From the NCBI RefSeq assembly GCF_002205635.1, contig NZ_NISJ01000006.1, positions 62,001 through 126,000 of the forward strand: a stretch of 64,000 bases of DNA, in the 5' to 3' direction. A program made the position numbers and the translations under genes. This DNA is from Sphingopyxis witflariensis. Lineage in GTDB: Bacteria; Pseudomonadota; Alphaproteobacteria; Sphingomonadales; Sphingomonadaceae. Positions within the stretch are counted from its first letter, which is position 1, and every line of letters begins with the position of its first letter. Under the pieces are notes generated by a model, which searched no databases, was not told the DNA's origin, and worked only from the letters and a program-made list of their open reading frames with translations. Shown here one piece after another: positions 52,769-63,747 of this stretch.

Positions 52769-52842
52769 GTTGTCCGCCATTTTCTTTCGTCATGCCGGAC
52801 TTGATCCGGCATCCATCGCGGCGTTGAAGTCGTGGATCCCCC

Positions 52843-53857
52843 TGAGTTCACAAACGAAGTGCAACACCTCACACAGGTGTTGCCATGTCGAGATACCGTC
52901 AGTTATCGATTGAGGAGCGCTGTTCGATTGCCCGTCTTTATGAAGACGGGCAATCGATCCGGCAGATCGCTACAGCTCTGGATCGCCAGCCGTCGACCAT
53001 CGCGCGCGAGTTGAAGCGCAACTGTGGAGCCAAGGTCGGTTACCAGCCTGCCTATGCGCAGGCGCAGGCCGATGCTCGGCGCTGGACCGGGACGCGGCTC
53101 GAGCGTGACGATGCCTTGCGTGAACAAGTGCTCGACCGGCTCGCGCAGGGCTGGTCGCCTGAGCAGGTGGCGGGGCGTCTGGCCCATGAACAAGGCCATC
53201 AGGTCATCAGCCATGAGACCATCTACCGCTTCGTCTATGCCCAGCTCAAACGCACCAACGACCGGCGCTGGCGCTTCTACCTCCCGCGCGCCAAGTACAA
53301 GCGCGGCTGGCGCACCAAGGGCGGCTGGCCGCGCTATACCGACCGTCTCTCGGTCCACGACCGCCCCGACAGCATCGCCACCCGCAAGCAGGCAGGCCAT
53401 TGGGAGGCCGATGCCATGCTCTTCTCCACTTCGGGACAGGCGATCCTGATCGCCCATGAACGCCACTCGCGGATCGCCATCGCCCTGCGTCAGGCCAGCC
53501 TCAAGGCCGATCCCGTCGCCGACGCGCTCGTCGGGATGCTGAGACCCCTGCCAGCCGCGCTGCGACGCTCGATCACCTTCGACAATGGCACCGAATTTAC
53601 CCGCCATCACCGCATCGAACAGCAGCTCGGCCTCAACGCCTACTTCTGCGATCCGCACGCTCCATGGCAGAAAGGCGGTGTCGAAAACGCCATCGGCAGG
53701 CTGCGCCGCAACCTGCCCCGAAAAACCAACCTCGACGACTTGTCAGCCAAAGCCATCGACGCCATCATCGCAAACTACAACAACACACCCAGAAAATGCC
53801 TCGGCTTCAAAACCCCAGCCGAAACCTTCCGCACGTTGCACTTCAAATGTGAATCCA
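52843..53857 (+). mobile_element. IS30-family insertion sequence
   Basis: About 1.0 kb. Imperfect terminal inverted repeats: left TTCACA-N3-GAAGTGCAAC (52847-52865) and right GTTGCACTTC-N3-TGTGAA (53835-53853), extendable by four bases. It holds one transposase gene. Exact ends and target duplication (IS30 types usually make 2-4 bp) are not resolved. Confidence 0.88.
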
Positions 53858-53880
53858 CACCCGGATCAAGTCCGGGGTGA
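52885..53880 (+). CDS. IS30-family transposase
   Basis: 331 residues. N-terminal HTH (SIEERCSIARLYEDGQSIRQ, TIARELKRN) is typical of IS30. The DDE catalytic triad is D in GHWEADAML, D in FDNGTEFTRHH and E in KGGVENAIGRLRRNLP. The last ten or so residues (CESTPGSSPG) and the stop codon fall beyond the terminal inverted repeat, in the flanking palindrome, so the host site supplies the end of the protein. The gene otherwise looks intact. Confidence 0.93.
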   Translation: MSRYRQLSIEERCSIARLYEDGQSIRQIATALDRQPSTIARELKRNCGAKVGYQPAYAQAQADARRWTGTRLERDDALREQVLDRLAQGWSPEQVAGRLAHEQGHQVISHETIYRFVYAQLKRTNDRRWRFYLPRAKYKRGWRTKGGWPRYTDRLSVHDRPDSIATRKQAGHWEADAMLFSTSGQAILIAHERHSRIAIALRQASLKADPVADALVGMLRPLPAALRRSITFDNGTEFTRHHRIEQQLGLNAYFCDPHAPWQKGGVENAIGRLRRNLPRKTNLDDLSAKAIDAIIANYNNTPRKCLGFKTPAETFRTLHFKCESTPGSSPG

Positions 53881-53896
53881 CGAAGGGTGGTGATTG

Positions 53897-54680: not shown

Positions 54681-55601
54681 TCAGGCCAGCCGCGTGCCCT
54701 TGGCGATTGCGCGTCCGCGCAGCAATTCGCCGGCATCCATCGCGGGCTTGCCCGCGCGTTGCACCCGCGTCGCGCGGATCGCGCCGGGGTTGCAGGCGAT
54801 GGTCAGCGTATCGTCGAGCGTCACGCCGGGCGTAGCGCCAGTGACGGTTTCGGACGGATGGACGACTTCGGCCGCCAGTATCTTGTAGCGCTCGCCTTCG
54901 AGTTCGAAAAAGGCGCCCGGCATCGGGTTGAAGGCGCGAATTTGCCGCTCAACCTGCACCGCGCCGGTCAGGAAATCGAGCCGCGCCTCGCTCTTGTCGA
55001 TCTTGGCGGCATAGGTCACGCCGTCGTCCGGCTGGGCGTCGGGCGCAAAGGCATGGAGGTCGCTCAGCACCTTCACCATCAACCCGGCGCCCATCGCCGC
55101 GAGTTCGTCGGTCAGTTCGCCCGCGGTCTTGCCATCGACCGGCGTCCGCCCGATCAGCCGCATCGCACCGGTATCGAGCCCGACATCCATCTGCATGATC
55201 GTCACCCCGGTCTCGGCATCGCCCGCGAGGATCGCGCGCTGCACCGGCGCCGCGCCGCGCCAGCGTGGCAGGATCGAGCCATGGACGTTGAGGCACCCCT
55301 CGCGCGGGGCGTCGAGGATCGCGGGCGGCAGGATCAGGCCATAGGCCGCCACCACCGCGATATCGAGGTCCAGTGCCGCGAATTCGGCCTGTTCGTCGGC
55401 GCCCTTCAGGCTCTTCGGCGTGCGGACCGGAAGGCCATGTTCCTCTGCCCAGACATGCACTGCGGATTGCTGCAATTTCTTGCCGCGCTGCGCGGGGCGG
55501 GGGGGCTGGGTATAGACAGCCACAATTTCGTGCCCCGCCGCGTGGAGCGCGGCGAGCGTCGGCACCGCAAAGGGCGGCGTTCCCATGAAGGCGATACGCA
55601 T
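54681..55601 (-). CDS. fmt: Methionyl-tRNA formyltransferase
   Basis: 306 residues. [20 protein letters not shown], catalytic [20 protein letters not shown] (Asn/His) and [12 protein letters not shown]. It formylates initiator Met-tRNA. ATG at 55601. def, its usual partner, is 1.2 kb away on the other strand, separated by the GIY-YIG unit and recR. Confidence 0.96.
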
Positions 55602-55641
55602 GATGCGCGCATTGGCGGAGGATGCGGGGTTGTGCAAGGTT

Positions 55642-55730
55642 GATGGTTGGAGATTGCCGCGTCGCTACGCTCCTCGCAACGACAAGCTCAAACCGTCATT
55701 GCGAGCGAAGCGAAGCAATCTCCAGCCATC
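55642..55730. repeat. Palindrome of class 'GGAGATTGC...GCAATCTCC', left of the nuclease gene
   Basis: GATGGTTGGAGATTGCCGCG, then CTCGCAACGA, loop AAGCTCAAAC, then CGTCATTGCGAGCGAAGCGA and GCAATCTCCAGCCATC. It ends four bases before the stop codon of the GIY-YIG gene. Confidence 0.85.
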
Positions 55731-55733
55731 GGC

Positions 55734-56033
55734 CTATCCGCCGGTCAGTTCAGGATACAGGTCACGCCATTCGGGATTTTCCACCTCGATCAACGCCACC
55801 TTCTTCGCCCGCGATCCGGCCTTGATCTGTTTTTCGCGCGTGATCGCCGAATGCATGTCACCGTGCAGTTCGAACCACACCAGTTTGTCGCACCGATAGC
55901 GCGCTGAAAATCCATGCTGTTTCTGCCTGTGCTGCCACGCCCGTGCGATCAGGTCCGACGTCACGCCGACGTACAGCACGCCATCCTTGCGATTGGACAT
56001 CATATAAACCGCTGGCTGCCGCTCTTCCCGCAT
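55734..56033 (-). CDS. GIY-YIG domain nuclease-family protein
   Basis: 99 residues. [20 protein letters not shown] is the GIY-YIG motif, followed by the conserved Arg (LIARAWQHR), a His-Tyr-free loop and the Glu in [19 protein letters not shown]. This is the UPF0213/YhbQ-like group of small predicted nucleases. The ATG at 56033 is 2 bp from one palindrome and the stop 4 bp from another of the same class, so the gene fills the space between them. Confidence 0.85.
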
Positions 56034-56034
56034 C

Positions 56035-56128
56035 GCTGGAGATTGCTTCGTCGCTGCGCTCCTCGCAATGACGAATTTGGGAACGTCATTACGACCCCGG
56101 TGAAGGCCGGGGGAAGCGATCTCCAGCC
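56035..56128. repeat. Palindrome of class 'GGAGATTGC...GCAATCTCC', right of the nuclease gene
   Basis: GCTGGAGATTGCTTCGTCGC, CTCGCAATGACG, loop AATTTGGGA, ACGTCATTACG and GCGATCTCCAGCC. The right arm is partly replaced by GACCCCGGTGAAGGCCGGGG. Its orientation matches the copy at 55642. Confidence 0.82.
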
Positions 56129-56171: not shown

Positions 56172-56768
56172 ATGGCCTCCACCGAAATCGAAGCGCTCGT
56201 CCAGCAACTCGCCCGGCTTCCCGGGCTCGGCCCGCGTTCGGCGCGGCGGGCGGTGCTGCATCTGATGAAGAAGCGCGAAAGCGCCTTTGCGCCGCTGCTC
56301 GCGGCATTGCAGATGGTGTCCGAACGGCTCGTCACCTGCACCATTTGCGGCAATGTCGACACGCATGATCCGTGCGCGATCTGCGCCGACCCGCGCCGCG
56401 ATGCGCGGTCGCTGTGCGTCGTCGAGGAAGTCTCCGACCTGTGGGCGCTCGACAAGTCGCGGCTCTTTCCCGGCAAATATCATGTCCTCGGCGGACGGCT
56501 CTCGGCGCTCGAGGGCATCCGTCCGCAGGACCTTGCCATCGACGCGCTGGTCGCGCGCGTCGCGGAAGGCGGGATCGACGAGGTCGTGCTGGCGATGAAC
56601 GCGACGCTTGAGGGACAGACGACCGCTCATTATCTTGCCGAGCGGCTCGAGGGGTATCCGATACGGCTGACCCAGCTGGCGCATGGTTTGCCGGTGGGCG
56701 GTGAGCTGGATTATCTCGATGAGGGGACGCTGGCGCAGGCATTGCGGGCGCGGCGTCCGGTGGGTTGA
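56172..56768 (+). CDS. recR: Recombination mediator RecR
   Basis: 198 residues. [20 protein letters not shown] (HhH), the C4 zinc finger [16 protein letters not shown] and the Toprim domain with [13 protein letters not shown]. Acts with RecF/RecO in loading RecA on gapped DNA. ATG at 56172; the upstream 44 bp include the nuclease-flanking palindrome, so its promoter must lie in or near that repeat. Followed by def after 31 bp. Confidence 0.95.
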
Positions 56769-57360: not shown

Positions 57361-57457
57361 CGTCATTGCGAGCGAAGCGAAGCAATCTCCAGCCATCAGT
57401 CTTGCGTAAGGCCGACGACTGGAGATTGCCGCGTCGCTTCGCTCCTCGCAATGACGA
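57361..57457. repeat. Palindrome of class 'GCAATCTCC/GGAGATTGC', gene-free copy
   Basis: CGTCATTGCGAGCGAAGCGA, GCAATCTCCAGCC, loop, GACTGGAGATTGCCGCGTCG and CTCGCAATGACG. Here the CGTCATTG ends face outward, the reverse of the two copies by the nuclease gene. Confidence 0.85.
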
Positions 57458-60962: not shown

Positions 60963-60965
60963 TAA

Positions 60966-61034
60966 ACCTCCTCTCCCGGCGGGAGAGGAAGCGAGACTTG
61001 CCAGCTTGCTGGCTAGTCGCAGCAGGTGAGGGGA
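60966..61034. repeat. Left half of palindromic element around the DUF559 gene
   Basis: CCTCTCCCGGCGGGAGAGGA, GCGAGACTTGCC, hairpin GCCAGC-TT-GCTGGC, CTAGTCGCAGC and GGTGAGGGG. Same as the left half at 59174, except that the GCGAAC/GTTCGC stem is GCCAGC/GCTGGC here: changed on both sides. Confidence 0.85.
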
Positions 61035-61035
61035 T

Positions 61036-61436
61036 GTGACGGAGAAGGTGCACAAACCGTCTACGTCTATGGCCCGCAAGCTGCGGCGCAATGACACCGA
61101 GGCCGAGAAGCGACTGTGGAGCGCGCTGCGCTCCCGTCAATTTCTTGGCCTCAAATTCCGGCGGCAATCACCGGTCGGAGAGTTCATCGCCGATTTCCTG
61201 TGCGAAGGCATGCGGATCATTGTCCAGGCCGATGGCGGGCAGCATGCGGACAACCCCGCCGACACCGATCGTACGGTACGCTTGCAAGCCGCAGGCTATC
61301 ACGTCATCCGTTACTGGAACAATGCATCATGGACAATCTGGAGGGCGTGTTGGAGGATCTGCGCGGACGTATGGCTGCTATCGCTGACGGCAGAACCCCT
61401 CACCCAACCCTCTCCCAAGGGGAGAGGGCTTTATGA
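61036..61436 (+). pseudogene. DUF559 (Vsr-like endonuclease fold) gene, frameshifted
   Basis: LRRNDTEAEKRLWSALRSRQ, KFRRQSPVGEFIADFLCEG and HVIRYWNN are DUF559 marks. Two defects: the usual catalytic Glu in the IVELDGGQH-type motif is Gln (IVQADGGQH), and one base is lost near 61324 so that WNN runs into a wrong frame; restoring it gives IMDNLEGVLEDLRGRMAAIA, the normal family tail, ending in a TGA that overlaps the rdgB ATG. The GTG start at 61036 directly follows one half of a palindrome and the restored end lies in the other half. Confidence 0.8.
61391..61430. repeat. Right half of palindromic element around the DUF559 gene
   Basis: GAACCCCTCACCCAACCCTC then TCCCAAGGGGAGAGGG. Same as the right half at 59280-59341 without the inner hairpin. 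Confidence 0.8.
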
Positions 61437-62059
61437 CCCACCGCGAACTCTCCCCCGGTAAACTCGTCATCGCCAGCCACAACGCTGGCAAGGTGCGCGA
61501 GATTCGCGCGCTGCTTGCGCCCTATGGGATCGAGCCGGTGTCGGCGGGCGACCTCGGGCTTCCCGAGCCCGAGGAGACGGGGACGACCTTCCGCGACAAT
61601 GCGTTGCTCAAGGCGCATGCCAGCGCCTCGGCTTCGGGCTTGCCCGCGCTCGCCGATGACAGCGGGCTCGAGGTTGCAGCGCTCGGCGGACGCCCGGGGG
61701 TTTACACCGCCGACTGGGCCGAGCGTCAGCCGTATGAGGGCGAACCCGGTCGCGACTGGTATATGGCGATGGGGAAGGTCGAAGGCCTGCTCGCCGAACA
61801 GGGACCGGACGCCGATCGCAGCGCCTGTTTCGTCTGCACCCTCGCGCTCGCCTGGCCCGACGGCCATGCCGAGGTTTTCGAGGGCCGGGCAGAGGGCAGT
61901 CTGACCTGGCCGCCGCGCGGGATATTGGGCTTCGGTTATGATCCGGTATTCGTTCCGATCGGTAACTCGCTGACTTATGCTGAAATCTCGCCCGAAGAGA
62001 AGCATGCAACCAGCCACCGGGCCGATGCGTTTGCGAAGCTGGTGGCGGGGGTGTTCTAG
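61433..62059 (+). CDS. rdgB: dITP/XTP pyrophosphatase (RdgB/HAM1)
   Basis: 208 residues. [54 protein letters not shown] and [15 protein letters not shown] with [15 protein letters not shown]. It removes non-canonical purine nucleotides. The ATG overlaps the restored stop of the DUF559 pseudogene; its CTAG stop is shared with the convergent gene. Confidence 0.96.
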
Positions 62060-63657: not shown

Positions 63658-63747
63658 GCCCGTTCGCCCCGAGCTTGTCGAAGGGCTGTTCTTTCTTTCG
63701 CCGGGCTGGAGGAAAGAGCGGGGCTTCGACAAGCTCAGCCCGAACGG
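63658..63747. repeat. Palindromic repeat, class 'GAGCTTGTCGAAG'
   Basis: CCGTTCGCCCCGAGCTTGTC with GACAAGCTCAGCCCGAACGG and inner CTTTCTTTCG/AGGAAAGAGCG. About 90 bp between hemW and the recombinase gene. The insert in the repeat at 35048 resembles one arm. Confidence 0.85.

Follow-up and report, generated by a model that had tools for sequence, protein, structure and literature searches.

The closest described systems are the REPINs and RAYT genes (REPtrons), in which REPs form inverted pairs, an enzyme gene is accompanied by its cognate REP class, and gene-less pairs behave as non-autonomous forms (PMC3116915; PMC8266576; PMC3733652). REPs with a different tag, CGTC, are known from five phyla (PMC3733652). 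In the passages found of that paper, CGTC REPs have a CGTC or TGTC tag and a CCA tail, occur mostly as HH dimers, are commonly heterodimers, and have an alphaproteobacterial focus. Di Nocera et al. (2013) equated CGTC-1 of Neisseria with dRS3, and CGTC-1 and CGTC-4 of R. conorii with RPE-6 and RPE-4, respectively; they described CGTC REPs as apparently without a dedicated transposase, and wrote of the heterodimer preference that it 'has no obvious explanation' (PMC3733652). The same passages cite the processing of inverted repeats by SbcCD and make no mention of a GIY-YIG gene. Nor was a GIY-YIG gene linked to REPs in any paper among the top matches listed from the open PMC literature.

Results

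The locus between fmt and recR

The DNA analysed, referred to as the window, is a stretch of 64,000 nucleotides from Sphingopyxis witflariensis. A sequence-only reading of it had proposed that a GIY-YIG gene lies between two copies of a ~90-bp palindrome, that a third copy near by has no gene, and that gene and palindromes move or are maintained as a whole. The features of the locus are as follows.

54681-55637, minus strand: fmt, left neighbour (name recognised from the sequence alone)
55647-55684, minus strand: outer REP half, left, long loop
55694-56073, minus strand: candidate REP-gene-REP unit, 380 bp from outer tag to outer tag, with the inner REP halves in HH layout and ends placed by the architecture of the T3 units described below
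55694-55725, plus strand: inner REP half at the 3' end of the gene, short loop, with the CGTC tag facing outward and the CCAG tail facing the gene
55734-56033, minus strand: GIY-YIG nuclease gene, 99 aa, ATG at 56033, stop at 55736-55734, PF01541 at E 2.5e-12
56036-56073, minus strand: inner REP half at the 5' end of the gene, long loop, tag outward
56084-56126, plus strand: outer REP half, right, diverged loop, seen by eye and missed by the REP pattern
56172-56768, plus strand: recR, right neighbour (name recognised from the sequence alone)
57361-57456, no strand assigned: gene-less HH heterodimer of a short-loop and a long-loop half, 34-bp spacer, polarity as in the gene unit, from the pattern search; candidate internally deleted derivative

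The gene was present between palindromes as proposed, on the minus strand. Palindromic blocks were found at both flanks, but each consists of two CGTC-type REP halves whose tags are face to face. The gene starts 2 bp from the long-loop half and stops 8 bp from the short-loop half, and these inner halves form the tags-outward (HH) pair that encloses it. The extra REP half on each side makes the ends of the window unit less certain. The third copy was confirmed as a short-loop plus long-loop HH pair. As single-stranded DNA this gene-less dimer folds far better than shuffled sequences (z -7.3); the single class A halves at the ends of the window gene fold no better than shuffles (z -0.8 and +1.1). 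The class A REP of the window has a 5-bp outer stem, with 9-17 nt from GAG to the closing stem. Its short-loop form has 55 copies in the genome at three mismatches or fewer, some of the three-mismatch matches being sister class members, and 37 copies at one mismatch or fewer; the reversed control gave none. A search of the 64 kb with Rfam gave no match at the gathering threshold.

The unit was also said to separate genes that usually lie together. It does lie between the fmt side and the recR side; however, in each of the 30 genus loci read, fmt and recR stand next to each other in divergent orientation, 35-570 bp apart. The unit thus occupies an intergenic space and disrupts no operon there.

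Eight loci of the family, genes or remnants, were found in the same genome by protein search (ten rows, one gene appearing as two and one row being a chance match at E 0.2). Palindromes lie hard against both ends in all eight and were assigned by eye to seven fine classes: the ATTGCGAG type, the TGAActtgtTTCA type, the CCGGacttgaTCCGG type (two genes), the CCGGGcttgACCCGGG type and three GCGAAAGC-loop types. One end of L004 is a REP remnant only, cut by an IS, and L008 is mixed, with a T3 palindrome (CCGGGcttg type) upstream and a T1 palindrome (CCGGactt type) downstream. Three of the eight copies are broken by stops or a frameshift. A separate, IS30-like transposase gene in the window (52785-53890; HTH_38 and rve domains) lies between the halves of a T1-class REP pair; by eye, this IS also seems to be the one that cuts the REP on the left of L004.

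The predicted nuclease

The window protein scores 47.3 bits against Pfam GIY-YIG (curated cut-off 22.6). Among aligned rows, Y10 (81/81), Y21 (81/81), R31 (79/81), E67 (80/81) and N86 (80/80) are kept; these are the putative active-site residues. A passage of PMC1564403 calls an Asn specific to the UvrC+ lineage, to which the conserved N86 need not be equivalent; the string 'palindrom' does not occur in that paper. In-frame stops were present in 6 of 80 matches. Median dN/dS lay between 0.05 and 0.18 in ten clades, some with few pairs; judged by their sequences, the nuclease genes are under purifying selection.

An AlphaFold2 model of the protein had a pLDDT of 90.7. Its top Foldseek matches were UPF0213, the UvrC GIY-YIG domain and Slx1, the best being 1zg2 at E 1.6e-3 with a TM of about 0.5; no match reached E 0.001, and I-TevI was listed at a non-significant E of 1.4. 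A sequence search of the PDB to E 0.01 returned only 1zg2 and 1ywl (E 5e-7 and 6e-4). Entry titles describe Slx1 as acting on branched DNA, so a hairpin or cruciform would be a plausible substrate. Y1_Tnp (PF01797), the RAYT-type transposase family, had no match in the window's own genome and none in 34 of 40 genus genomes.

Palindromes at homologous loci across phyla

Homologues were examined at 80 named loci, taken from 582 confirmed homologues and many of them from metagenome assemblies or bins; they span Proteobacteria, Chloroflexi, Bacteroidota, Omnitrophota and others. Flanking repeats were scored in a class-free manner, by comparing the 120 bp on one side of the gene with the 120 bp on the other and taking the best local match; the threshold was the 99th percentile of the scores from 3085 pairs of control windows. 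A repeat common to both flanks exceeded this level at 58 of 78 named loci. The same level was reached by 9 of 208 neighbour genes more than 250 bp away, and by 17 of 304 neighbour genes overall. Palindromes are thus far commoner here than around other genes, contrary to one outcome that the earlier reading had allowed for, and homologues elsewhere bracketed by the same palindrome, which it had predicted, occur across phyla, the T3 clade of the genus being the clearest case. Four rows were excluded, for short flanks (L053, L117) or for want of a match near the centre (L129, L146).

A REP finder, whose criteria include the CGTC tag and tail (the class-free score uses neither), was applied as well. 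A tagged REP was found within about 175 bp on at least one side at 73 of the 80 named loci and on both sides at 54, as compared with 102 of 2760 distal windows drawn from named and genus loci. The superclass on the two sides agreed in 50 of the 54, differed in one and involved an untyped palindrome in three. The innermost tags faced outward in 34 of the 54, and in 25 of 38 genus loci, against an expected 25%. Seven named loci were negative (L088, L092, L094, L104, L109, L117, L118), although L088 has one palindrome by eye. Within the genus the finder was positive at 61 of 75 loci, 38 of them on both sides, with superclass agreement at all 38; where it was blank (14 of 75), palindromes were visible by eye on both sides in 13 and upstream only in L218. 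In L064, from a Bdellovibrionales MAG, the flanking REPs form, by eye, an inverted repeat of ~60 bp in all that runs past the tags and resembles long terminal inverted repeats.

A distant GIY-YIG subfamily from the same genus (L221-L240) was tried as a negative control and rejected, having palindromes of its own on both sides at 20 of 20 loci. By the class-free score it was positive at 2 of 20 loci, as against 53 of 75 genus loci of the first subfamily. The neighbour-gene control stands.

Nuclease lineage and REP class

Within the genus, 39 of the 40 loci typed on both sides carried the same fine class on each (shuffled mean 4.9, maximum 15), with the class patterns written after the flanks had been seen; 75 loci were usable, 12 of which were typed on neither side. 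On a protein tree of 73 genus members (two of the 75 being untyped), the 13 REP classes need 13 changes, as compared with a minimum of 12 and a shuffled mean of 53. As typed here, every nuclease lineage goes with a REP class of its own. Class T3 comprises two enzyme lineages, L150 standing apart and yet having T3-type palindromes.

Site counts, obtained by comparing flanks in both orientations, placed 9 of the 13 classes at a single genus site; A_ct, T1 and T2 each have two, and T3 palindromes have six, L150 and L195 sharing one place. Four of the five members of the window's own clade are at one site. Because most clades occupy a single site, much of the match between class and clade reflects shared descent at one site. 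A G4-class unit in L220 was seen at the same place as those in L149, L212, L214 and L219, in the opposite orientation.

The number of repeats per genome was also compared with the presence of the cognate gene in 40 genomes, by rank tests that ignore relatedness and with genomes carrying broken or partial copies (such as G037 and G025) counted as lacking the gene. Medians were 40 with and 1 without the gene for A_ct (p 0.0012), 54 and 6 for A_cc (p 0.0004), and 8 and 1 for T3 (p 0.005). One of six non-cognate pairings fell below 0.05 (the A_ct gene with A_cc repeats, p 0.03). Some genomes are rich in repeats with no gene in the table, G004, G018 and G031 having 15-24 T3 repeats and G002 having 85 A_ct repeats. 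Presence of the gene and number of repeats are thus not strictly coupled; such genomes would be accounted for by a later loss of the gene.

T3 units at several sites and their proposed gene-less derivatives

T3 is the only clade that gave clean copies at several sites. The clade proper has six loci at six sites, and its units measure 394-396 bp between the outermost tags; the unit of the separate L150 lineage, which has T3 palindromes, measures 384 bp. Two copies at unrelated sites in G023 are 99.0% identical over 416 bp, and their homology extends beyond the tags by ~4 bp on the right and by about 15-17 bp on the left. Inverted ends and defined boundaries are present in T3 units; for the window copy they are read from the layout. 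Outside five of the six T3 units, the adjoining 200 bp contain no tagged REP. In G025, a genome with 25 T3 repeats, the ends of contigs C5, C7, C24 and C81 (L303-L306) carry T3-like nuclease copies that are 79-82% identical to the L195 unit; an assembly interrupted by several near-identical copies would be expected to look like this.

Gene-less T3 dimers were picked from the listed T3 matches, which are not a full census. Nine of them match the unit at either end (over roughly its first 32-48 and last 35-40 bp) and retain the bases inside the hairpin pair that are unequal between the two ends; four others fit the ends of the L150 lineage better. As they carry the two unequal ends of the unit, these dimers look like internally deleted derivatives. 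Class A dimers of the window's genome are comparable: among 55 matches, 30 were read and 28 were readable (L035 and L040 being missed by the pattern), and 20 of 21 dimers pair a long-loop with a short-loop half, like the ends of the window unit. The remaining 7 of 28 have no partner by pattern, the window gene's own REP included.

The proposal that the unit moves or is maintained as a whole is supported. Since most clades, and four of the five members of the window's own, are at one site, the window's unit looks maintained more than freely moving.

Occupied and empty sites

The fmt-recR interval was read in 30 of the 40 genus genomes with a match. Four have the gene with palindromes, two have one class-A REP pair and no gene, six have gene-less T1 dimers, seven have a bare 35-bp gap and 11 have other palindromes or sequence. 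The four filled rows need four changes on a recR plus fmt tree, i.e. they are scattered, and the interval changes its occupants between genomes. Relatives thus do not all keep the gene at this place, contrary to the other outcome that the sequence-only reading had allowed for.

Other sites were less simple. Upstream of ruvB, no clean empty site was found in the 30 loci read of 39 genomes with a match, gene-less relatives carrying other sequence there. The joined flanks of a T3 site detected no precise empty site in 80 genomes, the positions being taken by other units, dimers or inserts. One orthologous intergenic site holds, depending on the genome, a T3 unit, a reverse-oriented L150-type unit or dimers that belong to other classes and lack the gene. 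Inspection by eye of seven sites, with no precise empty site as reference, showed no target-site duplication. T3 units and other dimers (L143, L206, L150, L276, L277) were often seen by eye inside a motif AGCGGACGTTG ... AACGTCCGCT; this motif may be an inverted repeat in its own right and may be favoured for insertion.

Further nuclease genes next to palindromes

In the second GIY-YIG subfamily (L221-L240; YYTGHTDNL), the palindromes on both sides at 20 of 20 loci are of GAGCTTGTCGAAG or CGAGCGAAGTCGAG type. This motif, chosen after those loci had been seen, occurs in 3 of 200 distal windows and on both sides at none of 75 first-subfamily loci; a copy of the repeat is in the window at 63671-63736. 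Protein tails of this subfamily such as SEVEG...STSLDTNG look like translated palindrome.

The window also contains a DUF559 gene (61036-61461, E 5e-31). CTCTCCC...GGGAGAGG palindromes precede the gene (60965-61038) and overlap its 3' end (61405-61437). Twenty-one of the 30 DUF559 loci in the genus (L321-L350) have a both-flank repeat above the control 95th percentile; the window copy scores below it. The CTCTCCC motif is on both sides at 10 of the 30 and in 1 of 161 distal windows. DUF559 and its palindrome are possibly a third nuclease-palindrome pairing.

Discussion

The pairing of nuclease and palindrome is, as a fact of sequence, near certain. We consider it likely that the two make up a very small autonomous mobile element, a nuclease with cognate REPs that would spread by nicking and copying and leave deleted dimers as derivatives. 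The element would consist of the GIY-YIG gene between two inverted CGTC-tagged REP hairpins, ~0.4 kb in total. The enzyme would recognise the hairpin of its cognate REP, or the cruciform that a REP dimer can form, and nick it near the tag; host replication or repair would then finish copying the unit into its new location. Gene-less REP dimers of that class, which are abundant, would be internally deleted, non-autonomous forms that have kept both ends. Mobilisation by the nuclease is likely; that it cuts REPs, at that position, and that cutting drives the copying, we infer. The nuclease is probably the missing partner of the CGTC REPs, and the heterodimer preference could be explained by descent from a parent unit whose ends are unequal.

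Homing offers a different account of the same layout: the nuclease would cut empty REP sites, and gene conversion through flanking REP homology would copy the gene in. GIY-YIG is the catalytic fold of homing nucleases too, I-TevI being in the fold list at its non-significant E value; one versus two REP pairs at fmt-recR fits the conversion of one site to a filled one, and target-site duplications were not seen. REP dimers at new sites would then need another origin, however, and the scarcity of tagged REPs just outside T3 units counts against homing. Deletion-type dimers elsewhere with the unit's unequal ends imply that the ends themselves must move, and we regard homing as unlikely. That the nuclease is a domesticated guardian, kept by the host to process REP hairpins or cruciforms much as SbcCD deals with inverted repeats, with the flanking REPs regulating its gene and no current movement, seems to us distinctly unlikely. 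Patchy presence at fmt-recR, broken copies (in-frame stops in 6/80 matches, 3/8 copies in the window's genome) and T3 copies at several sites all speak against it, even though purifying selection, the occupation by most clades of one genus site, as a domesticated gene would do, and the weak nearness of the fold to the branch-cutting Slx1 would suit such a role.

Two further accounts give the nuclease no part in movement. If a RAYT or IS transposase mobilised CGTC REPs and the nuclease gene merely hitchhiked between two of them, a near one-to-one match of nuclease clade and REP class would not be expected, and Y1_Tnp, the transposase family searched, has no match in the window's genome and in most genus genomes; REPs are reported IS targets (PMC1525189), and the window itself has a transposase gene between two T1 REP halves, but we hold this to be very improbable. 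Ordinary regulation, with the palindromes acting as terminators or similar signals around a small gene, would agree with the mostly downstream position of REPs in the passages found of PMC3733652. It is scarcely tenable given the same fine class on both sides, upstream of the start included and mostly inverted, and the rarity of both-flank repeats at other genes (9/208).

The mobile-element reading, the one we prefer, could extend further. There may be a broad, unrecognised class of elements in which a small nuclease is embedded in its own palindromic repeat, two GIY-YIG subfamilies owning two palindrome superfamilies and DUF559 perhaps a third, with a large share of orphan repeats (CGTC REPs, dRS3, RPE-4/6 and others) as deleted descendants; we see the case for and against this extension as evenly balanced. 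If the pairing is right, the spread of CGTC REPs and the heterodimer excess become directly testable with a protein of ~100 aa and a hairpin of ~35 nt, and the thirteen enzyme/hairpin classes in one genus form a natural specificity series.

Comparison with known systems

The analogy with REP/RAYT drawn in the earlier reading is apt in layout and pairing, since inverted REP pairs, an enzyme gene with its cognate REP class and gene-less pairs are found in both; but the enzyme is no RAYT, being a GIY-YIG nuclease in place of a HUH tyrosine transposase (Y1), and the tag is CGTC in place of GTAG. If the pairing is right, a type of mobile element with a GIY-YIG nuclease as its enzyme would be added. 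To our knowledge, ~395 bp would rank among the smallest autonomous elements. I-TevI-type homing endonucleases are likewise selfish genes that lie beside their own presumed target, and they share the catalytic domain. Unlike them, the family described here consists of the ~99-aa catalytic domain alone, with no intron seen and a dispersed repeat family as presumed target. Its nearest PDB matches are small GIY-YIG proteins of the UPF0213 kind (1zg2, 1ywl), both of which are placed in the Slx1 family in a passage of PMC1564403. The repeats share with the published CGTC REPs the tag, the tail, the mostly HH dimers, the common heterodimers and the alphaproteobacterial focus. To the published stem of 8-9 bp and loop of 4-5 nt (PMC3733652, passages found), the T and G classes are a fit by eye, and class A has an outer stem of 5 bp. 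Unlike the CGTC REPs in those passages, the HH pairs around the nuclease genes have a spacer that is occupied by a GIY-YIG gene.
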